DNA of 64,000 nucleotides, taken from positions 2,790,001 through 2,854,000 of the forward strand of contig NZ_CP139368.1 in assembly GCF_034120055.1 (NCBI RefSeq). Reading direction: 5' to 3'. The notes below the pieces were generated by a model. The model was not told the origin of the DNA. It did not search any database and was given only the letters and a program-made list of their open reading frames with translations. The position numbers and the translations under genes are program-made. Below are positions 31,722 through 44,481 of this stretch, piece after piece (position 1 is the first letter of the stretch; every line of letters begins with the position of its first letter). This DNA is from Microbacterium rhizosphaerae (GTDB lineage Bacteria > Actinomycetota > Actinomycetes > Actinomycetales > Microbacteriaceae).

Positions 31722-31834
31722 CGCGCCGCGGACGGAACCCGGCCGTCGGTTGCGCGCGAGCGAACGCCACGAGGAGCACGAAGGAACGAACGAGTGCGGT
31801 CGGATCGCGTGTTGCATGATGAGAATCTATGTTC

Positions 31835-31840
31835 TAGTGT
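31835..31840 (+). promoter_or_regulatory. Leaderless -10 element for the HNH gene
   Basis: TAGTGT, spacer GGATGC, ATG. The surrounding ~40 bp are AT-richer than the flanks, as expected of a promoter. Confidence 0.55.
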
Positions 31841-31846
31841 GGATGC

Positions 31847-33301
31847 ATGTCAAGCGCCGTTAGCTCCGATTCTTCTTCCTCTGGGGAATTCCCGGATGCG
31901 GCGCTGCTCGCGCACCTTTTCGACAGCGTTCTGGAGGACCAGTTCGCGGTGAATCAGCGCTCTGCGGCACGGGCCGAGACGCTGGCCGAGCTGCTGTCGT
32001 TCGCACGGACCCATCCGCACGTCTACGCCTTCACCGAGGATGCAGACGCGGTCGAGATCGCCGAGCGCGCGATTCTGCGCGACGCCGCCCTGCGGTTCGG
32101 CGTCTCCGAGAACACCATCCGGGGCATCGCAGCGACGGCCGAGGCGGCAACGACCAGACTCCCCCGTCTCTGGCGGCGCGCACGCGACGGCTTCGCCGCC
32201 TTCGCGCAGGTCGAGGCAGCGGTATCGCTCCTTCCGGTCATCGGCGACGGGCTGGAAGTCTTGGCGGGGTTCGACACCGAACTCGCGGACGCCGTCGTCC
32301 GCCTCGGGTCGGCCGGATTCCGATCCTTCGCGCATCGCGTCGCTCGACGGCTCTCGCAGGTGCCCCCGGCGATCCGGCATCAGGACGCCGCGGCCCGACG
32401 TCGCGTGATCGTCGATCCGGTCGAGGACGGCATGGCGTGGCTCTCGGCCTACCTCCCCCTCGCCGAGGCCGTGGCGGCGAAGCGCCATCTCACGTCGACC
32501 GCGAAGCACGTGGCGAAGACCGACCGGCGCGGCCGCACGCGTGATCAGATCCGGGCGGATCTTCTTTCGTCATGGCTTCGCGGCGAAGGAACCGCGACAG
32601 CAGTGAAGACCAAGGTGCTCGTCACCATTCCGGTGTCTGCGCTCTCCGGCGCCGCACGCGCGACGGTGCGAGACCGCCCGCACCGCGGCGCGGGTGGTGG
32701 CGCGGGCCCGGATCTGAACGACGGACCACTGCTGGATGCGACGACTCCCCTCGACGACAGCACCGCGGTGACGGCGCTCCTGCGCGAGGGCGCCTTCACC
32801 CGCGTCTTCACGGATCCCGTGACGGGAGTCATCCTCGACATGGACCGCAGGTCACGGAAGGCGACACGAGCCCAAGCCGAATGGCTGACGCTCGCCTATT
32901 CGACGTGCGCGGTGGATGGATGCGAGCACCCGGCCGCCGAGGCGGACATCGATCACTGGCTCGAGTTCCACGGGCCGCAGCGTGGGCGGACGAACATCGC
33001 GAACCTGCATCCGCTGTGCGGGAACGATCACAAACTCGCGAGCCGATCCAGGCTCGTGTACGAGCGTGCCGCTGACGGCGTGGTGCGGGTGCATTCGCCC
33101 GCAGAGGCTGTGCCGGTGCCGACGCCGGTGTCGATGCCAGTGCCGGTTCCGGTGCCGGTGCCGGTGTCGATGCCAGTGCCGGTTCCGGTGCCGTCCGAGT
33201 CGCCGGAACGTATGGAGGACGACCGCGAGGAGATTCGGCGCATCACATCGGCACTCGCCCGTATCGAGCGGCCGATCTACGGAAGTGAGCCGCCGTTCTG
33301 A
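31847..33301 (+). CDS. DUF222 / HNH endonuclease domain protein
   Basis: A 484-residue protein of the actinobacterial DUF222-HNH type. Residues ~1-330 are the helical DUF222 region. The HNH nuclease motif is CAVDGCEHPAAEADIDHW then NLHPLCGNDHKLA, with the zinc-binding cysteines and catalytic His present. The tail holds a run of Pro-Val dipeptides (residues ~425-450) produced by a 36-bp tandem repeat. These genes exist in many copies in actinobacterial genomes and their biological role is unclear; some may be tied to mobile elements. No intron or integrase is seen nearby. Confidence 0.9.
   Translation: MSSAVSSDSSSSGEFPDAALLAHLFDSVLEDQFAVNQRSAARAETLAELLSFARTHPHVYAFTEDADAVEIAERAILRDAALRFGVSENTIRGIAATAEAATTRLPRLWRRARDGFAAFAQVEAAVSLLPVIGDGLEVLAGFDTELADAVVRLGSAGFRSFAHRVARRLSQVPPAIRHQDAAARRRVIVDPVEDGMAWLSAYLPLAEAVAAKRHLTSTAKHVAKTDRRGRTRDQIRADLLSSWLRGEGTATAVKTKVLVTIPVSALSGAARATVRDRPHRGAGGGAGPDLNDGPLLDATTPLDDSTAVTALLREGAFTRVFTDPVTGVILDMDRRSRKATRAQAEWLTLAYSTCAVDGCEHPAAEADIDHWLEFHGPQRGRTNIANLHPLCGNDHKLASRSRLVYERAADGVVRVHSPAEAVPVPTPVSMPVPVPVPVPVSMPVPVPVPSESPERMEDDREEIRRITSALARIERPIYGSEPPF
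33125..33194 (+). repeat. 36-bp tandem repeat encoding the PVPV tail of the HNH protein
   Basis: Two units at 33125-33160 and 33161-33194, identical over 33 nt, each itself built from CCGGTG hexamers. It keeps the frame and is prone to slippage. Confidence 0.9.
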
Positions 33302-33309
33302 GGGGCGGG

Positions 33310-34086
33310 TCAGCAGCCGGGCGCAGTCGGAGCCTCGGCGCAGGTGTGCGCCACCAACGCGGTGTGTGCCTCGTACACCTGGATGCCGGTCGTCATCGGC
33401 GCGCTGCGCACCTGCCCGATCACGGCGACCCACCTACCACTACCCCAGTCGACCGCGGCGTCGTACACGACACGGACGGTGACCGCGTAGGACCCGCGCT
33501 CCCGATACACGTGGCTCGTGGGGGTGGAGGTGAGCTGAGCTTGACGCAGAGAATCCCAGGATGCGCCACCCGTCGACGTCGTCGATCTCGAGCCGTCGCC
33601 GTAGTCGTACTCATACGCGGCGGGCGTGAACCGAACCGCGACGGGATAGTCGAACAGGGTGCCGGTGAGCGCGTGCGTCGGCACGGCGGCGACGAGATTC
33701 GTCGGCGCCCCCACGATGCCGACGCCGTCCGGTTCCACCGTGAGGGTGGGCCGCCGCGGGGTGAAGGCAGCGAGGTCCTCGGCATGCGGGGTCGGGAGCA
33801 CGATGACGCTGTAGGTGTCGCGGCAGGCGATGGTATCGGTGACGCAATCAATGGGGATGGCAGAGGGCGACGGCGTGGGGCGAGGCTTGTTGGTCGTGGT
33901 CTTCGTCGGAGTGTTCTGGTGCGCGCCTTCGCGGGAAGCGCCAACGCTAACTGTCGATCCGTCATTGATTGCGTGACAGGTAGATCCCCACATATCGTTT
34001 CCACCACTACATTCCGAGGCCGTTAAGTGCCCAGCGCCCGAAACTAGACCAGCCGTCATCGCGACTGCGATGATTGCTACTCGCAC
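33310..34086 (-). CDS. Secreted PKD-domain protein, unknown function
   Basis: A 258-residue protein. A short hydrophobic start (AIIAVAMTAGLVSGAG) is a likely export signal; a Thr/Pro-rich linker (residues ~57-77) follows. Residues ~150-225 hold a PKD-like Ig fold with YEYDYGDGSRSTTS and HVYRERGSYAVTVRVVYD. Several cysteines (26, 37, 81, 88 and near the end) could form disulfides outside the cell. The GTG start overlaps the preceding lipoprotein gene by 10 nt, so the two are translationally coupled. The coding DNA at 33.9-34.1 kb is visibly less GC-rich than its surroundings. Confidence 0.75.
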   Translation of the reverse strand: MRVAIIAVAMTAGLVSGAGHLTASECSGGNDMWGSTCHAINDGSTVSVGASREGAHQNTPTKTTTNKPRPTPSPSAIPIDCVTDTIACRDTYSVIVLPTPHAEDLAAFTPRRPTLTVEPDGVGIVGAPTNLVAAVPTHALTGTLFDYPVAVRFTPAAYEYDYGDGSRSTTSTGGASWDSLRQAQLTSTPTSHVYRERGSYAVTVRVVYDAAVDWGSGRWVAVIGQVRSAPMTTGIQVYEAHTALVAHTCAEAPTAPGC

Positions 34087-34622
34087 GCGGGCGGTCCCTC
34101 ACGTCCTGCCACTCGTTCAACTCGATACGCGAAGTCGGTCGACCGATCGGCAACAAGGCTAACGGTGACGGTTTGCGTGGGCACGCGGTCAATGTCCACG
34201 GCCGATGTGCCGTCAGTATTGGTGAGTCTTACCCCGGATACGTCAACACAGGCGGCCAGGTCAACACGCTCTCGATCAGTCGAAACATCGGACGGCTCAA
34301 GAAGCTTGATAATGGATATTCCGTCGATAGTGACCCCGTCTGCGTGATATCTGGAGAGGCCCTTGCGATCCGCTGCATTGGCATCCCCCGTGGTGAGTGC
34401 GAAGACAGGCTCGAACGTCTTGGGATCCGCGAGATCGACCTGGTTCAGGGCATCCACGTAGTCCCGATAGACCTTCTCCGCCGCCGCATAGGCGGCGGCG
34501 TCACTCGTGAACGCGGGCGTCGGAGTCGAAGGCGTGGCCGCAGGGTGGCCGGAGCATCCCGCCACTCCGAACGCGAGCGCACCGGCGACGACCAGGGCGA
34601 GAGCGCGGCGGCGGAACGTCAT
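34077..34622 (-). CDS. Hypothetical lipoprotein coupled to the PKD protein
   Basis: A 181-residue protein with an N-terminal signal RRRALALVVAGALAFGVAGC (lipobox VAGC) and a Pro/Thr-rich spacer, followed by a domain starting DAAAYAAAEKVYRDYVDALN. This resembles the small alpha/beta NTF2-like fold seen in many actinobacterial lipoproteins, but I do not assign a function. The ATG follows TAGGGT plus GGATGG, a leaderless arrangement. Codon use is less GC-biased than in neighbours, consistent with acquired DNA. Confidence 0.75.
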   Translation of the reverse strand: MTFRRRALALVVAGALAFGVAGCSGHPAATPSTPTPAFTSDAAAYAAAEKVYRDYVDALNQVDLADPKTFEPVFALTTGDANAADRKGLSRYHADGVTIDGISIIKLLEPSDVSTDRERVDLAACVDVSGVRLTNTDGTSAVDIDRVPTQTVTVSLVADRSTDFAYRVERVAGREGPPACE

Positions 34623-34628
34623 CCATCC

Positions 34629-34634
34629 ACCCTA
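34629..34634 (-). promoter_or_regulatory. Leaderless -10 element for the lipoprotein/PKD operon
   Basis: TAGGGT on the minus strand, 6-nt spacer GGATGG, ATG. Confidence 0.5.
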
Positions 34635-34660
34635 TGCAAAGCGCATGGACCGCCCCGCCG

Positions 34661-34669
34661 TTATCCACA
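34661..34669 (+). promoter_or_regulatory. Perfect DnaA-box 9-mer (isolated)
   Basis: TTATCCACA, the consensus DnaA box, between the divergent lipoprotein gene and the three-gene unit at 34771. It is single, so not an origin; it may be a titration or regulatory site or chance. Confidence 0.4.
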
Positions 34670-34770
34670 GGCACATCCGCGGACGTGGCTGGCGCCGCCG
34701 TCTCTTGTATCGGCGCGGGCAGAGGAGTACTCCTTCGGGCAGGGGAAGTTTCTCGAACGGTGGGGCAGAC

Positions 34771-37700
34771 ATGGATGCCGACGAGTCGACGCCGAGTAGT
34801 GCTGAGAGGAATCCGGTGCAGTGGCGCATCGGCGGATTCGACCTTTTCGTCGACCTCCGGACGGTCCGCCAGGGCAGGCCCGATCCGGTCGACGGCATCG
34901 TGCGCGGGGTGTCGGGACGGGGCTGGGTGCGCGTCCCGGGAGCACAGCCGACCGTGCTCGAGCCCTCACCGAAGGGGCGGCGCTTCGTGCACGCCGTCGA
35001 AGTCGTCGACCAGGTCGAGCATCCCGACACCGAGGTCGCCGTCGCGGATGCGCAGGCGGTCCGCCCTGGGGCGGCGATCGGCGAGACGGTCACCGTCGCG
35101 TTCGACGCCGACGCCGCGCAACTGCGGGGCATCATCGCCGAGGGCGGCAGCGTGACGGGCTGGCTTCGCACCGACCCGCCGACGTCGCTCGTGGCCGTGG
35201 AGTTCTCGGACCTCGCCGTCGACGTGGCCCATCACGTCGTCGTCGACGGCTCGGTCACCTACCCCATCGCCGGGCTGCTCCCCCCACCGCTGCAGATCAC
35301 CATCGCCGGCTTCACCCTCGTCATCTCGAGGTTCGCGATCTTCCCGGTGCGCGGCTTCCGGGCGGATGCGTCGGTGATCCTGCCGTCGGGAGTGACGGAT
35401 GCCGCCTCCTGCGGCCCCGCGGTCATCGAGCTGGGCAGCATCGCCCTGTCACCCACGGGCGACTACTTCTTCGACGAGCCCGACCGCGGATTCGGACCAT
35501 GGCTGCTCGGCGACACCGGGATGGTCATCGGCGGGACGGGCTTCACGCTCGACCTCAGCCTCACGGCGAGCGCACCCGGCTGGCCGCCGCCGTGGCGCGG
35601 GCTCGTCCTGGTCGACGGCACCGCGACCGGCGAGCAGCATGTCCCCGAACCCTGCAACAGCGGCTACCTGCGCGGAACGTACGCGTTCCACCATGCGACG
35701 ATCGACGCCACGGGACTGGCGGGACTGCTCGAGCTGACGGCGCCGGTGTCGTTCACGGCGCTCAATCCGTTCGGCCAGCCGTTCACCTTCTCGTCGGGTC
35801 AGCTCACCGTGCAGAGCAGCGCGATCGCGTCCGGTGGCTTCGACAACGGACGCACCGACCTGCTGCCGACGGCGGTGCGCGGCAAGAACGGCACGCACAC
35901 CGTGTCGCTCGACCTCACCGCCGTGAGCGTGCAGCCCGACTACAGCCTGTCGGGCGTGCTCGATGCCGGCGGCACCGCGCTCTCGTGGGGCGAGCTCACG
36001 CATCCGGGCGAAGAGGTCCTCGTATGGACGGCGGCGGCCGGGCTCGCCTACCTCTACCTCCCGGGAGGATCGGTCACCTCCTACAGCCCGGTCTCGTCCG
36101 GCAGCTTCGTGAATCCCCCGGTCAACAGCGCCCCGGGCAGCACGCTTCCGGCCCTGGCCGCGGGCGCCGTCTCGGGCGTCACGCTGTGCAACTTCACGGA
36201 CCTCCTGCTGCACACCCCGGATCGGCCCGGCGGGGCGTCCGTCCCATTCGCGCTCGGCCCCGCCTACGGCTGGCTGCGCATCGGCGTCACGGGCGTGGAC
36301 GGCGAGCTGCGGCGCTTCTCCGCGCCGCTGCGCGAGCCGCTCGGCGACCCGGCAGGCACGGGGTACGTGGGCGTCGACTCGTTCAGCGCAACACTGTTCC
36401 AGCAGGACCGCCTCAATCTGCTCGCGGATCTCGTCACGAGCGCAGCCTTCGACTCGCACTTCAGCGGGAGCATCAGCATCCCCGATCCCGTGGACATCGG
36501 CCAACTCCCCTTCGCCGAGATGAAGATCACCTCGACCGCGTGTCTCGTCGGCGGCGATGTCGTGCTTCCGCCGGGAGGCATCCCGCTGCCGCGCTGGGGC
36601 CTGTCTCTCGTGTCGACCTCGACGACCGGGCAGGCCGGGGTCGTGAGCGTGCGCACGGGCCGCATCCTCTTGACGGCGGCAGGCCTTGCCGAGCCCCTGC
36701 ACTTCGCTCGCCCGATCGGCCTGACGTGGGGGGAGATCCTCGCCGACGGGCAGATCGGCGACCTGTTCCTCGACTACAACGACTGGGGTCAGCGCTTCGA
36801 CGGACTCGCCTTCCATCCGCACGAGGTGACCTTGGCCTACCCCTCCGCCACGGAGGCCTACCTGGGAGTGTGGGGATCGGTCACCTTCCCGTTCTTCGGT
36901 GCGCATGCCGTCAATGTGCGCGACGGACTCCCCGACCCGGCGCATCCATCGTTCACCCGCTGGGTCACCGTGCCGCACGATCCGATCACCGCACACGCCG
37001 GACCCACCGATCTGGCCCTCTCGGGCGTCTGGCACGACAGCCAGGGGTCGGTCGCGATCGACGTCGAGTGCCCCATCGACGTCGGGTACGACGAGACCGT
37101 CCAGCGCGGGTTCGCCGGCAGCGGCACCGCCGCGATCGGATGCCTTGGCAACGACGAGCTCCCCACGATCATCACGATCCGCGACGGTGCGAGCGACGTC
37201 CGGTTCACCTCGGGTCAGACGCACGATTTCGCGCTGCCGACCGTCGCTCGCCTCGGCGCCATGTCCGAGATCGCGGGAAGCCTCCGGGTCGAGGGCTTCA
37301 CCGCCTCGAGGATGAACATCTTCGGGATGCTGGAGCAGTCGGCGCAGGTCGGGTGGATCCTCGGCCCCAAGGAGGGCTACGACGTCGAGGTGAACACCGT
37401 CGTGACGGCGACCTCGCTCGATTTCTACGCCTCGGGCGACATGCTCCTCGCGGTCGCGCTCACGCAGGTCGAGGCATCGGCCGTCGTGCACCTGCACGTC
37501 GACTACGCGGCGCAGACGGCCGAGGGCGAGGTGCTCGGCACCGTCTCGGCGTCGTCCGCGTTCAACGGCCTGCAGGGCAGCGGCCAGCTCACGTGGTTCG
37601 TCGGGCCTGGCACGATGTACATGCAGGGCAAGGTCGCCGTCGCGGTGTTCGTCGCGTTCGCGTCGTCCGAGACGCTCGAAGGCGGGTTCTTCGTCGGGTG

Positions 37701-38148
37701 GAACGCCCCCAACGCCGTCGCGTGGGTGCTCGACACGGGCGATTCGCGCTTCAAGATCTCGCGGTCGATGTTCCCGGCCTCGATCACGGGCGTCTACGGA
37801 TACGGCCGGGCGTCGTACACCAAGACGTTCGCCTACGTCGCCCAAGCCGGCGTCGACGTCTTCATCGGCGGTGGCGCCTTCCTCGATCCGCTCTCGGGCG
37901 GTGCGCCGATCGCTCCGTTCGGAGGCGTGCTGCCCTATGTCGTCGCCGCGTGCGGCATCGGCATCCACGGCGAGATCGCGGGTGGCCTCGTGAGCGCCTC
38001 GGCGTGGGCCGAGCTCGCCGTCCGCGGGCCCCTCCCGCTGTACTTCGAGGGCACGTTCGGGCTGTCGGGATGCGTGGCCTGGGTGCTGTGCGCATCCATC
38101 ACCCTCGCCGCCCGCTACACCGCCGACGGCCTCGAGCTGTCGGACTAG
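34771..38148 (+). CDS. Large Gly/beta-rich protein of unknown family (first gene of a three-gene unit)
   Basis: A 1125-residue protein that I do not recognise. After a Ser/acidic start it shows alternating hydrophobic/Thr-Ser-Gly patterns throughout, suggesting beta-rich repeats (for example GYLRGTYAFHHATIDATGLA, SGSISIPDPVDIGQLPF). The last ~220 residues are strikingly Gly/Ala/aromatic-rich with amphipathic segments (GYGRASYTKTFAYVAQAGVD, GIGIHGEIAGGLVSASAWAE) resembling barrel- or solenoid-like sheets. There is no signal peptide, lipobox or clear membrane helix. ATG 34771 is preceded by a weak GGTGGGG site; the frame is open upstream to 34507. The FN3 gene starts 8 nt after the stop, with AGGAG spanning the junction. 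Confidence 0.8.
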   Translation: MDADESTPSSAERNPVQWRIGGFDLFVDLRTVRQGRPDPVDGIVRGVSGRGWVRVPGAQPTVLEPSPKGRRFVHAVEVVDQVEHPDTEVAVADAQAVRPGAAIGETVTVAFDADAAQLRGIIAEGGSVTGWLRTDPPTSLVAVEFSDLAVDVAHHVVVDGSVTYPIAGLLPPPLQITIAGFTLVISRFAIFPVRGFRADASVILPSGVTDAASCGPAVIELGSIALSPTGDYFFDEPDRGFGPWLLGDTGMVIGGTGFTLDLSLTASAPGWPPPWRGLVLVDGTATGEQHVPEPCNSGYLRGTYAFHHATIDATGLAGLLELTAPVSFTALNPFGQPFTFSSGQLTVQSSAIASGGFDNGRTDLLPTAVRGKNGTHTVSLDLTAVSVQPDYSLSGVLDAGGTALSWGELTHPGEEVLVWTAAAGLAYLYLPGGSVTSYSPVSSGSFVNPPVNSAPGSTLPALAAGAVSGVTLCNFTDLLLHTPDRPGGASVPFALGPAYGWLRIGVTGVDGELRRFSAPLREPLGDPAGTGYVGVDSFSATLFQQDRLNLLADLVTSAAFDSHFSGSISIPDPVDIGQLPFAEMKITSTACLVGGDVVLPPGGIPLPRWGLSLVSTSTTGQAGVVSVRTGRILLTAAGLAEPLHFARPIGLTWGEILADGQIGDLFLDYNDWGQRFDGLAFHPHEVTLAYPSATEAYLGVWGSVTFPFFGAHAVNVRDGLPDPAHPSFTRWVTVPHDPITAHAGPTDLALSGVWHDSQGSVAIDVECPIDVGYDETVQRGFAGSGTAAIGCLGNDELPTIITIRDGASDVRFTSGQTHDFALPTVARLGAMSEIAGSLRVEGFTASRMNIFGMLEQSAQVGWILGPKEGYDVEVNTVVTATSLDFYASGDMLLAVALTQVEASAVVHLHVDYAAQTAEGEVLGTVSASSAFNGLQGSGQLTWFVGPGTMYMQGKVAVAVFVAFASSETLEGGFFVGWNAPNAVAWVLDTGDSRFKISRSMFPASITGVYGYGRASYTKTFAYVAQAGVDVFIGGGAFLDPLSGGAPIAPFGGVLPYVVAACGIGIHGEIAGGLVSASAWAELAVRGPLPLYFEGTFGLSGCVAWVLCASITLAARYTADGLELSD

Positions 38149-38156
38149 GAGTCGTC

Positions 38157-40547
38157 ATGGTCGACATCGCGCTGTTGCAGGCCACCTCGGACGGTGTCGC
38201 CGCCGACGGCACGACGCGCATCGCGCTCCGGTGGGAGTCGGTCGGCGAGGCGATCGGATACCGCCTCCACCGGCGCACGCCGGGCGGCGCATCCGTCGTC
38301 CTGGGCGGAGCCGATCCGATCCGGCTCCCGCAATCCGCGACCGAGCTGCGCACAGTGGTGACCCCGGGCACGGTCGAGTGGAACACGATCGCACGCGTCC
38401 TGACGGCCGCGCAGTCTCCACCGCCCGCCGATCCCGACGTGCTGGTCGACCCGGGCGCGGTGTTCGACCGGGGACTGACGGACCTCGAGCGCGCGACCCT
38501 GCAAGCGGCGTCCCAGGCCGACCTCACCGTCGGTCGCGTCGACGGCATCGCGTACATCGACGCCGATGTGACGGCGGGCCAGGAGTACCTCTACGACCTG
38601 ATCGCGGTGCGGGCGCAGGGCGGAGACCTGGTGCTGTCCACCGACGTGGCGGTGACCGCGGGCGTCTTCACCCTGCCCGCGCCACCGTCGGGACTCGTGG
38701 CGCAGCCCGGCGACCGTCGCGTCCTCGTGCTCTGGAATCGCAATCCCCTCGCTGCGACCTTCGTCGTGCAGCGCGCGAGCGCACCGGGCGGCCCGTATCT
38801 GCAGATCGACCCGCAGCCGATCGCATACGACACGACGACGGACATCGACGGCGCCGCGCTCCCCCTGCCGCAGCCCGGATTCCTCGACGTGGGAGCATGG
38901 GCCGCCGACGGCTCCCCGACATCCCGGATGGTCGCGGGCACCACCGTCGACGGACCCGATACCGGCATCACGTACTGGTACCGCGTGGCATCCCGCGACA
39001 CCCTCAACAGGCTCGGGGCGTGGTCGGCTCCGGTCGCGGCGACGCCCGTCAGAAGTCTTCCGCCCCGCGCACCGGACGGGCTGCAGGTGACAGCGACGAC
39101 GGCGGCGGACGGGCTCGCGCTGCAGTGGAACACCGTCGACCGCAACGTCGAGAACCACTGGCTCGTCGACCAGGGGATCCCCGACACGAGCCAGACCAAT
39201 CTCGTCTATCGCGCCGACTCCAGGGAGCAGCTCGAGGACCTCGCGAACCTGCCCGCCCTGCTGGTCGCGACGATCCCGAGCGACCCGTACGACGCGACCA
39301 ACCCGGTGCAGTCCTGGACCGACACGGACCCCGTCCTGATCCCGCCGTATGGCACGAAGCCGTTCTTCTACCGCGTGCGGGTCATGGATGCCGCCGGCAT
39401 CCTGTCCGCGCCATCCGCCGTCATCGGCGCCGCCGTGCCCGATACGATCCCGCCTGGGCCGTCGACGATCACCGGAGCCGAAGGCAAGGCCGACCGCATC
39501 CATGTGGAGTGGAAGCCCAACCCCGAACCCGACGTCGCCGGCTACCAGGTGTGGCGCGGAGTCTGCGACAACGGCTACGTCTACGTGCCCGGAATCTCGC
39601 ACCTCCCGCCCCAGAAGGGCGAGCAGCCTCCTTCGAAGGAGAGCAGGTACCACTGCGACCTGACTCAGGTCGGAGACATCCCGGTCGGGGACGCGCTCGC
39701 CATGATCGCGGCCCACGGCGTCATCGAGTTCGACGACACCACCGTGCCCGCGAACTCCCCGCTCTGCTACGCCTACTGGATCCGCGCGTACGACTTCGCC
39801 GGCAACCTCTACCCGGGCGACGTCCACGGATGCCCGAGGCCCGGCGAGTACCTGTGCGCGGGGCTGCGCGAGAAGACGCCGCCGCAGCTGCCGGTGCTGA
39901 CGGCACTGCGAGCCCGCGACCACGGTGTCGAGCTCGAGTGGATCGGCGCACCCGAGCCCGACCTCCACGCATTCCACATCTACCGGGCCGAGAGCCCGAC
40001 CGATGCGCCCGAGTTCCTCGCGTGCGTGTTCACCGACGGCACGGTCAGCTCGCTCCCGTGGTCGGGGCTGCCGCTGTCGTGCGCGGCCATCCCGGCCGTG
40101 GCCGACCCGCTCTCGGCACACGGCGCCTACGTCGACGCGGACGCCGAGCCCCACCGCATTTTTTGGTACCGCGTCTCGGCGGTCGACTGGCTCGGCAACG
40201 AGAGCAGCGCCGGCGACCTCGCCGCGATCCCGGCAGACAGCACCTTCGCCTACGCCAGCACGGTGCCGGCGACGCCGACGATCCTGCCGCAGGCGATGCC
40301 GCTACCCGACGGATGCGGGCTCGGCGTCTCCTGGGGTCCCCCGTACGACCCCGCAGCCGTGCAGGGCTTCGTCGTCTTCCGCGCTGCCGCTGGCCAGCCG
40401 TTCCGGCAGGTGTCGGGCGTCATCCAGGGCAACGGGTTCGACGACGAGACCGCTCGGCGCGGCGTGGACTACTACTACCGGGTGCAGGCGGTGGATGCGA
40501 CGGGCGCCCTGTCCGAGCCATCCGCTCCCATGCTGCAGCGGTACTGA
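38157..40547 (+). CDS. Multi-fibronectin-type-III protein (second gene of the three-gene unit)
   Basis: A 796-residue protein made largely of fibronectin type III-like repeats. Clear units begin near residues 175, 301, 431, 575 and 702, each with a Pro-rich A-strand and the W/Y core, e.g. IHVEWKPNPEPDVAGYQVWR and VELEWIGAPEPDLHAFHIYR, ending with YWYRV/FWYRVSAVD-type G-strands; the first ~170 residues contain one or two more diverged units. There is no signal peptide or anchor, unusual because bacterial FN3 arrays are mostly extracellular. Such arrays normally serve as spacers or binding surfaces. It sits between the beta-rich protein and the papain-like protein, 8 and 17 nt away. Confidence 0.88.
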   Translation: MVDIALLQATSDGVAADGTTRIALRWESVGEAIGYRLHRRTPGGASVVLGGADPIRLPQSATELRTVVTPGTVEWNTIARVLTAAQSPPPADPDVLVDPGAVFDRGLTDLERATLQAASQADLTVGRVDGIAYIDADVTAGQEYLYDLIAVRAQGGDLVLSTDVAVTAGVFTLPAPPSGLVAQPGDRRVLVLWNRNPLAATFVVQRASAPGGPYLQIDPQPIAYDTTTDIDGAALPLPQPGFLDVGAWAADGSPTSRMVAGTTVDGPDTGITYWYRVASRDTLNRLGAWSAPVAATPVRSLPPRAPDGLQVTATTAADGLALQWNTVDRNVENHWLVDQGIPDTSQTNLVYRADSREQLEDLANLPALLVATIPSDPYDATNPVQSWTDTDPVLIPPYGTKPFFYRVRVMDAAGILSAPSAVIGAAVPDTIPPGPSTITGAEGKADRIHVEWKPNPEPDVAGYQVWRGVCDNGYVYVPGISHLPPQKGEQPPSKESRYHCDLTQVGDIPVGDALAMIAAHGVIEFDDTTVPANSPLCYAYWIRAYDFAGNLYPGDVHGCPRPGEYLCAGLREKTPPQLPVLTALRARDHGVELEWIGAPEPDLHAFHIYRAESPTDAPEFLACVFTDGTVSSLPWSGLPLSCAAIPAVADPLSAHGAYVDADAEPHRIFWYRVSAVDWLGNESSAGDLAAIPADSTFAYASTVPATPTILPQAMPLPDGCGLGVSWGPPYDPAAVQGFVVFRAAAGQPFRQVSGVIQGNGFDDETARRGVDYYYRVQAVDATGALSEPSAPMLQRY

Positions 40548-40564
40548 CGGAGACGAGGCGAAAC

Positions 40565-41992
40565 GTGGGCATCCTCCGGGACTTCGACTACAAGCACGAC
40601 GGCTTCCCGTTCGCGAACTTCGACACGGACACCCTCGACTGGGACACGTACCGACGGACCTACCTGTCGATCTGGCCGACGAACGACGTCGTCGGCGCGC
40701 CGCTCGACGTCGCCTTCTACGCCGCCGCGTTCGAGCACGCCGCGAAACCCGGCCACTGCGTCGGGCTCTCGACACTGGCGATCACGATCTGGCAGCTCGG
40801 TGGATGGTTCGGCTTCAGCTCGCCCGCGAGCTTCTACCTGGGACCGCCGGACACCTACCCCCATCCCGGCCCCGAGAGCGACGATCTGCGCCAGGCCGTG
40901 CACATCCTCCACGGCCGGCAGTTCGACGCCGGCAACGTGACGGACGTGCTGCAGACCGCGAAGGCCGGTCACATCAACGACGGCATGGCCGCCTACGACC
41001 GCGTCGTCGACGGCCTGGCGAGCGGCGACCTGCAGCTCATCTCCATCTCCGACGGGCTCTCCGACGGACACGCCCACTGCCTGCTCCCGTACCGCTGCGA
41101 GACCCTGGCATCGGGAGAGCGCGACATCTACGTCTGGGACTCCGTCCGCCCGTACGCCCTGTTCCCCGACTACTATGACCTCGGCTACAACGTCATCCGC
41201 ATCAACGGCCCCGCCGACTGGACCTACAACCAGAACCCCACCCCCGCCATCAGCGACGCCTACGTCTACGAGGGTGCACACCACGGCTGGCTGTTCGCGT
41301 TCTCGTCGACGGCGGTCCGCAACAAGGGAAGCCAGCCCTTCAGCGTCGGCTTCGCGATGTCGGACCTGTCCTACCTCGTGCTGTCCGGGTCGGCGTCGGT
41401 CGCGCAGATCGAGGACGACGAGGGCAGGCTGCTCTTCGAGACGGATGCCGCAGGCCGGCCGACAGGCTGGCGCACCACCACAGGGCTCGCGGTCCTCCCC
41501 TGGCCCTGGGCGGGCGGATCGGGCTCCGGCTCCGAGCTCTACCTGGTCCACGGTGACGAGACCGCGATCACCGTCCACGTCGACGGCCAGGACTACTCGC
41601 TGCAGCTGGCATCCGCCGGGAGGCTCACCGAGGTCGCCCCCCGCGGCGCAGGGCGCGCGACCGACAGCATCCGCATCGAGCGACGTGGCGCGTCGCACGC
41701 CCTGGAGCTTCGGACCTCCGCGCGCAGCCGCCGATTCGACGTGCGGCATGTCCACCAGCCGGAGCCGGGAGTGTGGGCAGGCGTGCGGGTGCAGGACGCC
41801 CTCGTCACCGACGACGCGGTGCGTGTCGAGCTCGCCGCGACGGCGGACTCCGCCCGGCTCTCCGGCGCACATGCGCGCCGGAAGGTCGACCTCGTTTTCG
41901 AGCGCTTCAGCGACGGGAGACTGTCCTCGTCGACGCTGACGGGCGCCCGGTTCGACCGCGATCACCCCCTGATCGCCACGGCTGAGCAGTGA
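40565..41992 (+). CDS. Predicted papain-like cysteine peptidase (third gene of the three-gene unit)
   Basis: A 475-residue protein with a plausible papain-like triad: Cys65 in PGHCVGLSTLAITIWQ at the start of a hydrophobic helix, His169 in SDGHAHCLLPYRCE on a strand, and Asp192 in IYVWDSVRPY on the next strand. The order Cys-His-Asp and the GHxxxPY then VYDxxxP-like spacing are those of papain-fold peptidases and related transferases. Residues ~260-475 form a beta-rich C-terminal domain with no recognised match. No signal peptide. GTG 40565 is preceded by GGAGACGAGG. Peptidase activity is inferred from motif order only; a transglutaminase-like or inactive fold is possible. Confidence 0.7.
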   Translation: MGILRDFDYKHDGFPFANFDTDTLDWDTYRRTYLSIWPTNDVVGAPLDVAFYAAAFEHAAKPGHCVGLSTLAITIWQLGGWFGFSSPASFYLGPPDTYPHPGPESDDLRQAVHILHGRQFDAGNVTDVLQTAKAGHINDGMAAYDRVVDGLASGDLQLISISDGLSDGHAHCLLPYRCETLASGERDIYVWDSVRPYALFPDYYDLGYNVIRINGPADWTYNQNPTPAISDAYVYEGAHHGWLFAFSSTAVRNKGSQPFSVGFAMSDLSYLVLSGSASVAQIEDDEGRLLFETDAAGRPTGWRTTTGLAVLPWPWAGGSGSGSELYLVHGDETAITVHVDGQDYSLQLASAGRLTEVAPRGAGRATDSIRIERRGASHALELRTSARSRRFDVRHVHQPEPGVWAGVRVQDALVTDDAVRVELAATADSARLSGAHARRKVDLVFERFSDGRLSSSTLTGARFDRDHPLIATAEQ

Positions 41993-42098
41993 GTGGACGA
42001 GTCGGCCGCCGCCGCACCGTGATTCCCGGAGGCGATTCCGGCGGCGAGCCCCGACGCATCGCGCTGCGTCCCCGTGCCGCGTCAGCGTGTGGGACCCC

Positions 42099-42104
42099 TA
42101 CGCT
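42099..42104 (+). promoter_or_regulatory. Leaderless -10 element for the membrane protein at 42111
   Basis: TACGCT, 6-nt spacer GTCGAC, ATG. This favours ATG 42111 over the in-frame ATG at 42087. Confidence 0.5.
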
Positions 42105-42110
42105 GTCGAC

Positions 42111-42521
42111 ATGACGGAAACGCCGGCCCCTGCCCACTTCCGCATCCGCTGGGGCTGGTTCGTCGGATGCATCGCGCTCGGACTGGGCGCCATCGCGATC
42201 GGCGCCCTCGTGGCTCCCGTCGCCGCTCTGCCGGGCTATATCGCGGGAGTCCTGGCGAACGTGGGGACCACCCTGCTGCTGGTCGGCATCGTGCTGCTGC
42301 TCGAGCGGCGGATCGTCGATAGTGCGATTCGCGTGGTCCGCAGCGCCAATGCGCATTCGAACGACGCGATCCGGGCGCAGATCCGGGACCTCGAGGATCG
42401 GCTCGCCGCGGAGTGGGAGTCCGCGACCGCCGAGAACATCGCCGAGAAGAAGGCAGAGACCGCACGGGTGGTCGACGAGTTCACCCAGCGGGTCGTGGAC
42501 GAGGCCACGCCCCACGAGTAG
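42111..42521 (+). CDS. Small membrane protein with two TM helices and a coiled-coil tail
   Basis: A 136-residue protein of unknown function. Two adjacent membrane segments (about residues 17-40 and 45-67) form a hairpin, followed by a charged helical tail (IRDLEDRLAAEWESATAEN then a Lys/Glu-rich stretch) likely to be a cytoplasmic coiled coil. No family is recognised. A 30-codon membrane ORF follows after 7 nt. Confidence 0.7.
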   Translation: MTETPAPAHFRIRWGWFVGCIALGLGAIAIGALVAPVAALPGYIAGVLANVGTTLLLVGIVLLLERRIVDSAIRVVRSANAHSNDAIRAQIRDLEDRLAAEWESATAENIAEKKAETARVVDEFTQRVVDEATPHE

Positions 42522-42528
42522 GGACCTG

Positions 42529-42621
42529 ATGGGGATCAGTGCCGGAGCGTTGGTAGCGGTCTTCGCTGCTCTGTTCGTTGTCCTCGTGGTGGTGTTCCTC
42601 ATCGTTCGACGCAGGCGGTAG
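42529..42621 (+). CDS. 30-residue single-TM small membrane protein
   Basis: MGISAGALVAVFAALFVVLV continues with a hydrophobic run and ends in four arginines, the classic N-out/C-in single-span microprotein pattern. GTAGGGAC upstream can act as a ribosome binding site. It follows the preceding gene by 7 nt, so the two are probably co-transcribed. Function unknown; too short for usual gene callers. Confidence 0.5.
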   Translation: MGISAGALVAVFAALFVVLVVVFLIVRRRR

Positions 42622-42680
42622 TTTCTCGCCGGTCCGGCAAGGGATAACTCCTGTTGCCGTCGCTGGTGGAGCGGGGCAGA

Positions 42681-43196
42681 GTGTCGCACATGTTCGTGGA
42701 TGACTTCGCTCAGCACAGCAAGGTGCTGCACATCATGACGGCGGACTTCGCGCGCGCTGTCCCCGACGAGAGGTGGGATTTCACGCCCGTTCCCCCTGGT
42801 TCGTCGGGCCGGCCGCCCGCTGCGTCTCGGCTGGGTGACGGATTCGGCCCGTTCTCCAAGCAACTCCGACACGTTGTGTGCGTGCGCGGCGTGCACAACG
42901 ACGCGTTGGCCACCGGCAAGCTCGACTGGTCGAAGAAGCATGAGCACTACACCGGCCCGCTGGAACGCGAGCCCCTTCTGGACGCGCTCGAGCACGAGCA
43001 GCAGGAGCTGTTGTCTCTCTTGGCCGAAGCCCATCCCGAGATCACCATCGACTGGGACGGCTTCCCCTTCTCGCTGGCGATGTTCGCCGGCGACTTCGTT
43101 CAGCACGAAGCCATCCATCACGGCCAGTGGAGCGTCTACGCCGCCGTCGCCGGCTTCGATACGCCGCTGAGCTGGCGCCAGTCCTGGAAGCTGTAA
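42681..43196 (+). CDS. DinB-like four-helix metalloprotein
   Basis: A 171-residue protein resembling the DinB/YfiT helical bundle: a His-containing first helix (FAQHSKVLHIMTADF), a second with QLRHVVCVRGVHND, and a C-terminal metal-binding helix FVQHEAIHHGQWSVYAA. The family binds a divalent metal through three histidines; some members are thiol transferases, most are uncharacterised. The start is uncertain: GTG 42681 has GGAG 9 nt upstream, ATG 42690 and TTG 42654 are alternatives. It stands alone, convergent with the TetR gene. Confidence 0.7.
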   Translation: MSHMFVDDFAQHSKVLHIMTADFARAVPDERWDFTPVPPGSSGRPPAASRLGDGFGPFSKQLRHVVCVRGVHNDALATGKLDWSKKHEHYTGPLEREPLLDALEHEQQELLSLLAEAHPEITIDWDGFPFSLAMFAGDFVQHEAIHHGQWSVYAAVAGFDTPLSWRQSWKL

Positions 43197-43263
43197 GCGC
43201 GGCGCAACCGGCATCGGGGCTGCTGACGATTCGGTGACGCCGGAGCAGGCTCGTCCGAGTCCG

Positions 43264-43878
43264 TCAAGCGTCATCTCGCAGGCCGGCCGAGATCAGGTCG
43301 GCGAGTGTGGGCAGGTCGGCGGGATCTGACGGATCGATGTCCGCGTCTGACGCGACATGAGTCGTGCCGCCATCCATTGCGGTGTGGTGGTCATGCAAGG
43401 TCGGGGTCGTGAGGATCGCGACCCAGGCGGTGGCGGCAGCGCGGAGCCGGTGGGCGGCGATCGGATGACGGGTGCTCGCGCGCAGCACCTGCTCGACGAG
43501 GTTCTGCAGCTGACGGCGATAGTCGTGCAGACTCGCGTGCACCTCGGGATGCGTGCGCTGTTCGCGCCAGACGATGACGCGCCGCACGGCTGACTCCGCC
43601 TGCAGGCGGCGCAGCATATGCGAGATGTTGAGCAGTGCACGCGCGGGGTCTCCACGCGCGATGAGTGCGGTGGTGTCGATGGGATCGAGCTCGAGCCGCT
43701 CTCCGACCAATGCGCGAAGGAGGTCCGTCTTGCTGGGGAAGTAGTAGAAGAGCAGCCCCTTGGGCACGCCGGCGGAATCGGCGATCGCCGCTGTCGGCGT
43801 GGCATCGAAGCCGCGCTCGGCGAACAGGCGCTCAGCCGCATCCAGGATGAGTGCCCTGCTCTCCCGGCTTCTGGTCAA
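43264..43878 (-). CDS. TetR family transcriptional regulator
   Basis: A 204-residue repressor. The N-terminal HTH is typical: LILDAAERLFAERGFDAT then AIADSAGVPKGLLFYYFPSK. The C-terminal ligand domain is divergent, so the effector is unknown. The frame begins with TTG at 43878 (TTGACCAGAAGC), with GAGG 8 nt upstream and no better ATG/GTG in frame. It lies 68 nt downstream of the SPW-like membrane gene in the same direction, and a TGACCG-N2-CGGTCA palindrome overlaps that gene's promoter, implying autoregulation of the pair. Confidence 0.88.
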   Translation of the reverse strand: MTRSRESRALILDAAERLFAERGFDATPTAAIADSAGVPKGLLFYYFPSKTDLLRALVGERLELDPIDTTALIARGDPARALLNISHMLRRLQAESAVRRVIVWREQRTHPEVHASLHDYRRQLQNLVEQVLRASTRHPIAAHRLRAAATAWVAILTTPTLHDHHTAMDGGTTHVASDADIDPSDPADLPTLADLISAGLRDDA

Positions 43879-43946
43879 GACGGCATCCTCACACGCGCGA
43901 CTGGGACGGCGGCCTCAGCCGTCGCCCCGGTCTCTCGAACGATGAG

Positions 43947-44306
43947 TCAATGCGGGAGGGTGCGATCGTGCGCGTGCATGGCCGGTCTGATGGCGATCGC
44001 CGCGACGATCGCCGCGACGGCGCCGCCGATCCAGCTGACCCACGCGGGACCCATGTTCGCTCCGCTCGCGTACTGGCCGATCCACGGCGCGATGGCGAGC
44101 AGGATGCCGAGCGCCAGCTGCACGTATTCGGTGGCGACGAGGCCGGGCATGGCCAGGTTCACGACACCGGAAGCGATCAGCAGGATGCCGAGCGTGAGCA
44201 TCCAGGCCATCGAGGCGCCGACGTGCGGCATCACGAACGTCGACAGTGCGACCACGAGGCCGACGCCCACGGCGACCCAGTCCTCCCAACGCATCCATTT
44301 CTTCAT
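43947..44306 (-). CDS. SPW-repeat-like membrane protein
   Basis: A 119-residue four-helix membrane protein: after the polar start MKKWMRWEDW come hydrophobic segments around residues 12-32, 36-55, 60-78 and 88-108. The internal symmetry, with LAIAPWIGQYA and GPAWVSWIGGA at equivalent positions, fits the SPW repeat family, whose role is unknown. GGAGGGAG lies at good spacing before ATG 44306, so an upstream in-frame extension was rejected. It is the first gene of a pair with TetR. Confidence 0.7.
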   Translation of the reverse strand: MKKWMRWEDWVAVGVGLVVALSTFVMPHVGASMAWMLTLGILLIASGVVNLAMPGLVATEYVQLALGILLAIAPWIGQYASGANMGPAWVSWIGGAVAAIVAAIAIRPAMHAHDRTLPH

Positions 44307-44358
44307 TCGACTCTCCCTCCTTCGAAAGGTGATGGCTCCCGATCCGGGGGTCGCCTCA

Positions 44359-44387
44359 ACGATAGATCTGACTGACCGCCCGGTCAA
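44359..44387 (-). promoter_or_regulatory. Sigma-70-type promoter with TetR operator
   Basis: On the minus strand TTGACC (44387-44382), a 17-nt spacer and TATCGT (44364-44359). The inverted repeat TGACCG-CC-CGGTCA (44373-44386) covers the -35 and upper spacer, so the TetR product would block RNA polymerase. This promoter has a leader and SD, unlike the leaderless ones. Confidence 0.6.
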
Positions 44388-44408
44388 CTGGGAGAGATGG
44401 CACGAAAG

Positions 44409-44444
44409 AGGCCCGGACCTGCAGAATTCTGCGGGTCCGGGCCT
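44409..44444 (-). terminator. Terminator after nrdF
   Basis: AGGCCCGGACC (44409-44419) pairs with GGTCCGGGCCT (44434-44444); the interior GCAGAATTCTGC is itself palindromic. On the minus strand it is followed by CTTTC, a weak U-tract. Confidence 0.75.
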
Positions 44445-44481
44445 TTCAGCCGCCCTTGCGGTCGGTGCAGTCCGGGAACTC

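Follow-up and report, generated by a model that had tools for sequence, protein, structure and literature searches.

Three adjacent genes in the window, the 64,000-nucleotide stretch of Microbacterium rhizosphaerae DNA analysed here, form a rare, accessory set located in a variable block beside nrdF, and the evidence supports that these genes, referred to as A, B and C, constitute one inherited unit. Homologue searches together with the conserved gene order establish that their reading frames are not chance ORFs. Tentatively, we favour an explanation in which this accessory unit has spread horizontally and in which A and B would form an extracytoplasmic assembly accompanied by C, a cysteine peptidase or an acyl-transferase/cross-linking enzyme. 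The trio is of interest as a co-inherited set with a large A family whose copy in the window has no Pfam match over the cut-off. In those portions of the published literature that were available to the search, no description of the A-B-C trio was found.

Gene layout, rarity and co-inheritance

Open reading frames of 1125, 796 and 475 residues are present on the same strand, as originally predicted (Table 1). The gap between A and B is indeed 8 nt (38149-38156), whereas that between B and C is 17 nt (40548-40564) and not 16 nt as first reported. Good Shine-Dalgarno sites had been claimed for all three genes; the one preceding B is clear and those preceding C are fair (GGAG at 40549-40552 and GAGG at 40555-40558), but A is preceded only by a weak GGTGGGG (34759-34765). 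A 106-nt stretch 3' of C folds no better than its shuffles (z 0.90), giving no indication of an intrinsic terminator, and a promoter and terminator scan of the unit was uninformative.

Table 1. Features of the A-B-C unit, in coordinates of the window
Feature	Position	Strand	Remarks
Gene A	34771..38148	+	1125 aa; beta-type hydrophobic periodicity
NusA_N-like segment in A (residues 73-111)	34987..35103	+	profile match spans ~63-144
Hydrophobic C-terminal stretch of A (residues 1096-1114)	38056..38112	+	just below TM-like threshold
Shine-Dalgarno-like AGGAG for B	38147..38151	+	overlaps A stop codon
Gene B	38157..40547	+	796 aa; FN3 array, ~six modules by eye, one above the Pfam fn3 cut-off
Gene C	40565..41992	+	475 aa; GTG start at 40565; putative papain-like cysteine enzyme
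Cys65 codon of C	40757..40759	+	putative nucleophile; motif GxCxG
His169 codon of C	41069-41071	+	residue not conserved
His171 codon of C	41075..41077	+	putative catalytic His
Asp192 codon of C	41138..41140	+	third residue of putative set; Asn in two homologues
Variable block, methyltransferase gene to nrdF	31722..44481	.	includes A-B-C and seven other genes

Within the genus, C was found in 1 of 198 genomes, namely its own, and was absent from the 197 others sampled; similarly, A was found in its own genome only, among overlapping samples of 396, 148 and 299 genomes. The methyltransferase gene and nrdF are separated by 12.8 kb here as against 0.04-2.6 kb in eight of the eleven relatives that have both nearby (20 relatives read), and the block contains A-B-C and seven further genes that could be found in none of those 20 relatives within ~15 kb of nrdF. 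No homologue of C was detected in viral contigs, phages or plasmids, none of A or B in viral contigs and none of A in plasmids. The phage search covered C and a distant A homologue (P0107), which had no match there; another distant A homologue (P0109) had none in plasmids. B gave only remote matches, on four plasmids. Its matches on Salinibacter and Euzebya plasmids were set aside as remote, FN3-type similarity only, and amongst 41 of 293 genomes with a B match in the order of genome G644, only G644 itself carries a full-length match (1317.8 bits), the next reaching 55.9 bits over 72 profile positions.

Such rarity in the sampled genomes might suggest decaying or mis-called genes without a joint function. 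That reading is contradicted by conservation and is extremely improbable: the frames are intact, many near-full-length homologues exist at ~37-85 % identity, and the gene order is conserved.

Order and short gaps recur in both other genomes found through the search with C (loci L002 and L003), and these other carriers of the trio are actinobacteria. Identities to the window proteins are 46-57 % for A, 57-59 % for B and, for C, 38-41 % in the main pieces, with a further 44-residue piece at 54.5 %. Linkage of A and B extends further, as 23 of the 96 A homologues lie on contigs of exactly the same size as a contig carrying one of the best 120 of 149 B homologues, against a mean of 0.435 and a maximum of 2 in a shifted control. 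Named carriers of A-B include Microbacteriaceae VKM Ac-2855 (HQQ80_17700/17705), Phytohabitans aurantiacus and a Nocardioidaceae MAG (U0R80_00620/00625). Three such coincidences link A and C (control mean 0.05, maximum 1), while the two between B and C do not exceed the control maximum of 3. Distances within A and within B are strongly correlated over 24 pairs (r=0.958, a value reached in 0 of 2000 permutations); linkage alone would produce this correlation, and co-inheritance of neighbours is no proof of binding. Co-occurrence of the three genes elsewhere, proposed earlier as a check, is borne out by the two loci of identical order and by the many contigs linking A and B. Homologues of the trio do not occur only singly, with the qualification that L002 and L003 were found via C, so they cannot tell how often A-B occurs without C; one distant C relative does stand alone, with neither A nor B on its 7.7-kb contig.

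Protein C, a putative cysteine enzyme

A catalytic-type region of approximately the first 245 residues of C is followed by a C-terminal region of ~230 residues. The search gave 26 homologues, the protein's own or a near-identical entry included, and these were aligned in sets of 16 and 26 rows. In the larger alignment, in which one fragment lacks the columns concerned, Cys65 and His171 are each present in 25 of 25 homologues, and position 192 is Asp in 23 and Asn in two. The original prediction had placed Cys65, His169 and Asp192 in papain-like order; the cysteine, the aspartate and the order stand, whereas His169, present in 13 of the 25 covering homologues, is rejected as the catalytic residue in favour of His171. 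Cys65 and His171 are also retained in all nine members of an alignment that includes two distant C relatives, both of which keep the triad. Conservation of these two residues makes the enzyme claim for C directly testable.

No Pfam or NCBIfam family matched C at the thresholds applied, and no informative match was obtained in the PDB, whose sequences gave only 19-20-residue matches to designed 'Cake' proteins besides weak others. Across the 26 homologues, Pfam returned only DUF7393 (0.022), BRCA2 (3.7) and RHS_repeat (9.9), each in one member. C represents a putative cysteine enzyme family outside the profile libraries searched. One of its more distant matches (L006, E=1.2e-4) is weak and consistent with the motif; another (L007), covering 28 profile positions, was treated as chance. 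The best distant relative (L005) is a protein of at least 850 residues (850 when counted from its first start, just ahead of which the contig ends), in which three LGFP repeats are fused to a C-like region. LGFP is named among the repeats of cell-surface proteins (PMC2447325). On the strength of this fusion, the target of C may be A-B itself or something in the envelope or outside the cell, at the place where A-B would reside.

Proteins A and B and their likely location

A had been described as matching nothing known. This holds for named families, as no Pfam family passes its cut-off in the window protein and NCBIfam, PHROG and PADLOC gave no match, but a NusA_N-like segment has now been found. 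Amongst the 96 A homologues (own or near-identical entry included), 25 were scanned and 22 of these match PF08529 (NusA_N) at E<=1, the best at 1.1e-5; PF08529 is also among the precomputed domains of one homologue (P0037). Profiles built from A homologues reach the PDB entry of NusA, 1hh2, at E=1.8e-6 and 1.3e-6. A of the window scores 17.9 and 21.6 bits, below the cut-off of 23.8, over profile positions 56-94 of 119, which is a partial domain. NusA, to which the detectable homology of A points, is a cytoplasmic transcription factor, and this speaks against an extracytoplasmic A-B assembly.

Alignments of 25 and 66 rows of the 96 homologues were used for further examination of A. Its beta-type periodicity is moderate, at 0.60 of windows when A is taken singly (shuffles: 0.511, sd 0.035) and 0.69 in the alignment; the measure is a weak one, since B, which is expected to be beta, scores 0.58 singly but 0.47 in alignment, with NrdF, the control for alpha structure, at 0.41. 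Profile self-comparison revealed no long internal repeats. Towards the C-terminus, a 19-residue stretch has a mean hydrophobicity of 1.86, and the conserved Cys1101 and Trp1104 of the A alignments fall within it.

The description of B as a fibronectin III-like array is confirmed by one module that exceeds the cut-off of PF00041 (fn3; 29.8 bits against 25) and by further modules recognised as internal repeats. B has 149 homologues, own or near-identical entry included, of which the best 120 are listed. Its matches in the PDB include titin, a beta-1,3-glucanase and a carbohydrate-binding protein. The latter two, together with the frequent occurrence of FN3 modules in extracellular hydrolases, would suit a set in which A-B capture a soil polymer or protein for C to break down. 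We consider this quite improbable, as A, B and C contain no carbohydrate-binding or glycosidase family of Pfam or NCBIfam, a crude scan finds no secretion signals in the window proteins, and no counterpart of the sugar-utilisation-like genes (named by eye) near L002 was seen next to the unit in the window.

B also matches FN3-bearing phage tail-fibre and head-decoration families (phrog_31, 1.5e-7), a similarity which may reflect FN3 alone. It could point to a released effector or toxin assembly, with A-B as delivery or binding body and C as enzymatic cargo, leaving the cell by lysis or through a specialised machine; a rare, accessory unit of three proteins that includes a putative cysteine enzyme and an FN3 array would fit such a role. 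This is nonetheless unlikely, given that no toxin family is present among the library matches and no immunity-gene candidate emerged from general searches. Furthermore, the phage-sheath family PF04984 is found in none of the three trio genomes (two of them MAGs, completeness not given) and in 3 of 14 controls, and the trio genomes thus gave no sign of this type of contractile injection system.

The extracytoplasmic location that we favour for A-B is suggested by some distant relatives of both proteins. In a crude hydrophobicity scan, which is not SignalP and takes a mean of 1.9 over 19 residues as its transmembrane threshold, 8 of the 96 A homologues (six convincing by eye) and 12 of the best 120 of 149 B homologues show signal-peptide-like N-termini. 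The same scan flags no such N-terminus and no stretch over the threshold in A, B or C of the window. It likewise passes over the N-termini of the other 88 A homologues, of 108 among the 120 listed for B, of every one of the 26 C homologues and of both members in all 23 contig-matched A-B pairs. The prediction that signal peptides are absent from the three proteins is upheld; for membrane anchors it holds by the threshold, but is less certain for A, whose C-terminal stretch comes close to it. Since most A and B homologues and all those of C lack a flagged signal peptide, a cytoplasmic role may hold. The unit could then be a defence-like conflict module in which A-B serve as a sensor or scaffold in the cytosol, perhaps in contact with RNA polymerase via the NusA_N-like segment, and C is a protease effector, a reading also consistent with the sporadic distribution of the unit and its position within a variable block. 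We regard it as rather doubtful, because PADLOC returned no family for A, B or C at E<=0.1, Pfam and NCBIfam revealed neither an NTPase or nuclease nor a known sensor domain in them, signal-peptide-like N-termini do occur in some relatives of A and B, and a C relative is fused to LGFP.

Under the favoured explanation, the large beta-type A and the FN3 array B would form one extracytoplasmic assembly, and the actinobacterial A, B and C would be set free by lysis or exported along a path that requires no classical signal. If the assembly does leave actinobacterial cells without such a signal, the export route itself would be of interest. A further, likewise rather doubtful view is that A-B is an undescribed two-protein machine, combining a giant beta-type protein that has a built-in NusA-like segment with an FN3 array, occurring with and without signal-peptide-like N-termini in distant bacteria and joined by C in part of the family; it might represent a new secreted or conflict apparatus.

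Comparison with known systems

Two plasmid units of Deinococcus psychrotolerans (L010 and L011) resemble the present unit in that a giant PKD protein is directly followed by an FN3-array gene, whose product aligns to B at 23-25 %. Against the A profile, one giant reaches 81 % probability over 98 columns and the other 6 %. In one unit the remaining gene codes for an OMP-type beta-barrel (PF13505), in the other for a family-less protein, and neither product matches C. With a third gene that does not match C and giants that are weakly A-like (2.0 and 8.6 bits, hmmsearch), these units were rejected as true A-B-C relatives.

In relation to the NusA N-terminal domain (PF08529), ~40-85 residues of A match; A differs in having part of the domain within 1125 residues, with no other NusA domain reported. 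LGFP-repeat proteins share with C the region fused to LGFP in the L005 protein, whereas no LGFP match was obtained for C of the window, which is accompanied by A and B. The papain-like cysteine peptidase superfamily has Cys, His and Asp/Asn in this order (PMC10318531), and C keeps the same order across its family; unlike those peptidases it has no recognised family or structure match and carries the additional C-terminal region. Finally, B resembles FN3 arrays (PF00041) in passing the fn3 cut-off and in its internal repeats, but differs from a generic FN3 spacer in a conservation that extends along the entire protein, an alignment of 23 of the 120 listed homologues showing many invariant columns, and in its linkage to A.

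Joint inheritance of A, B and C

A (a large beta-type protein), B (an FN3 array) and C (a putative papain-like cysteine enzyme) form a real, conserved trio and one unit of the 4.06 Mb single-contig host genome (window at 2790001-2854000). The shared direction and the lengths of the three frames agree with the original prediction, as does the 8-nt gap between A and B; the B-C gap, however, measures 17 nt instead of 16. A search of genome contigs with C found two other loci, L002 (Propionibacteriaceae MAG) and L003 (Actinobacteria MAG), where the order and short gaps are kept, with identities to the window of 46-57 % for A, 57-59 % for B and 38-41 % for C over the main pieces (54.5 % over 44 residues for the first piece of C in L002). 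A and C are both clipped by contig ends in L003 and broken by N in L002. Since both loci were selected through the C query, they are uninformative on the frequency of A-B without C. By eye, L002 is flanked by NUDIX-like, dehydrogenase-like and sugar-utilisation-like genes, which differ from those beside the unit in the window, and hence the unit appears to end with C on the basis of this single other locus with flanks.

For 23 of the 96 A homologues, the longest contig is exactly equal in size to that of a B homologue (120 listed of 149), whereas shifted-size controls average 0.435 such matches and never exceed 2. Together with L002 and L003, these matches bear out the co-occurrence in other genomes that had been proposed as a check. 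There are 3 A-C coincidences (control mean 0.05, maximum 1), while the 2 B-C coincidences show no excess over the control maximum of 3. Over 24 pairs, namely the 23 contig-matched ones and window A with P0123 (98 % identical to window B), the distances between A proteins track those between their B partners (r=0.958, a value reached in 0 of 2000 permutations), which shows joint inheritance as distinct from binding. C diverges fastest in the 3 triples available and B is the most conserved. No description of the trio was found in the literature searched.

Features of the unit, its site and distant C relatives (window coordinates unless a locus is named)
Feature	Coordinates	Strand	Description
A	34771-38148	+	intact frame, 1125 aa
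NusA_N-like segment in A	34987-35103	+	part of NusA N-terminal domain, inside large non-NusA protein
B	38157-40547	+	intact frame, 796 aa
C	40565-41992	+	intact frame, 475 aa, start codon GTG
Variable block	31722-44481		between methyltransferase gene and nrdF; span 0.04 to 14 kb in 11/20 relatives
G181 LGFP/C-like protein	L019:5133-7685 (contig 7)		at least 850 aa, at contig end
G163 C-like frame	L006:1078-1941 (contig 44)		287 aa, C's Cys/His/Asp pattern

Domain content and putative active-site residues

Pfam, NCBIfam, PHROGs and PADLOC give no family match over cut-off for window A, and to this extent the view that it matches nothing known stands; it does not extend to the NusA_N-like segment, matched by 22 of 25 scanned homologues at E<=1 (best 1.1e-5), window A's own match being under the Pfam cut-off. 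The top PDB matches of the A profile (66 of 96 homologues) are NusA structures (1hh2, E=1.8e-6); the host genome's other PF08529 matches lie at 3002313-3002606 of the contig. Hydrophobic periodicity, a weak measure, tends to beta strand over most of A.

B is indeed an FN3-like array, with one module passing the fn3 cut-off and about six modules in all to judge from internal repeats and the spacing of motifs. In PHROGs it matches tail-fibre J and Hoc-like decoration families and in the PDB titin, an Fn3-like protein and a glucanase, all of them FN3-type similarities. Two Deinococcus psychrotolerans plasmids, unnamed1 (L010:4512-13542) and unnamed2 (L011:278-13269), each carry a three-gene set in which an FN3-array protein (25 % and 23 % identity to B) is accompanied by a giant PKD protein (1904 and 3067 aa) and by a protein that is either OMP-type or unassigned; one giant matches the A profile with 81 % probability over 98 columns. 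By analogy, these sets are a possible diderm counterpart of A-B.

No family was found for window C in the same four resources and no informative PDB sequence match, and its 26 homologues gave three uninformative Pfam matches, one member apiece. Of 26 aligned homologues, all 25 that cover the sites keep Cys65 and His171 (the remaining one is a fragment); at position 192, 23 carry Asp and 2 carry Asn. Cys65 and Asp192 of the predicted Cys65/His169/Asp192 set are thus retained, whereas position 169 (His in 13, Ala in 11, Asp in 1) is rejected as the putative catalytic His in favour of His171. C is plausibly an enzyme. A distant relative from genome G181 (E 5.9e-24, model positions 14-290) has three LGFP repeats followed by a part aligning along the length of C; such repeats are described in cell-surface proteins (PMC2447325). 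Its gene adjoins, by eye, an ABC-transporter-like gene pair, and neither A nor B was seen on this 7.7-kb contig. A weaker relative from genome G163 retains the same Cys, His and Asp; by eye, its frame sits between dihydrolipoamide-dehydrogenase-like and lipoyl-synthase-like frames.

Rarity and the site beside nrdF

Among 198 genomes sampled in the genus, C occurs in a single one, its own, and among 396 of the phylum in 4 (its own and three distant or weak matches). In overlapping samples of 396 phylum, 148 relative and 299 family genomes, A is confined to its own genome, and full-length B is found in one of 293 genomes of the order of G644, namely G644 itself. Missing C partners may reflect divergence, as the C search detects close relatives only. 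Viral contigs gave no match to any of the three, plasmids none to A or C, and phages none to C. Some homologues are labelled Actinobacteria and one of B Casimicrobiaceae.

The site was compared in 20 relatives with strong nrdF matches, taken from the best-ranked of 123 matching amongst 129 genomes such that ~15 kb beside nrdF was readable. At E<=1e-8, A, B, C and the seven other genes of the block are absent from this stretch in all 20. The methyltransferase gene lies within it in 11 and was not found there in the other 9; its distance from nrdF is 0.04-2.6 kb in eight relatives and 5.8, 8.8 and 14.0 kb in three, and 12.8 kb in the window. The site is variable, resembling a gene-gain site beside nrd genes, where A-B-C was most likely gained. 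GC of the three genes (0.70-0.71; GC3 0.90-0.92) is close to the window's 0.70, and the unit thus does not stand out as foreign in its base composition.

Proposed cellular location and comparison with known systems

A crude hydrophobicity scan, not SignalP, flags no signal-peptide-like N-terminus in window A, B or C, in line with the original prediction. The accompanying claim of no membrane anchors holds at the TM-like threshold of 1.9, with a near-miss of 1.86 at residues 1096-1114 close to the C-terminus of A; this stretch is conserved in alignments of A homologues, and membrane contact is therefore possible. The lack of signal-like N-termini here, along with the NusA-like segment, would suit a cytoplasmic conflict module, a reading we consider less likely. 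By the same scan, signal-peptide-like N-termini are flagged in 8 of 96 A homologues (6 convincing by eye), in 12 of the 120 B homologues listed (of 149) and in 0 of 26 for C; none falls amongst the 23 contig-matched A-B pairs. The longest contig is 9687 bases for flagged A P0118 and 9688 bases for flagged B P0232, a 1-base difference that may be coincidence, and the pair was left out of the linkage count. Considering the joint inheritance, these distant A and B forms and the LGFP-fused C relative, most likely A and B would form one extracytoplasmic assembly, and C would be a thiol enzyme whose target is either this assembly or something close by in the envelope.

As for known systems, A, itself a large non-NusA protein, carries a segment corresponding to part of the NusA N-terminal domain, and C shares with papain-like peptidases the canonical order of Cys-His-Asp/Asn (PMC10318531).
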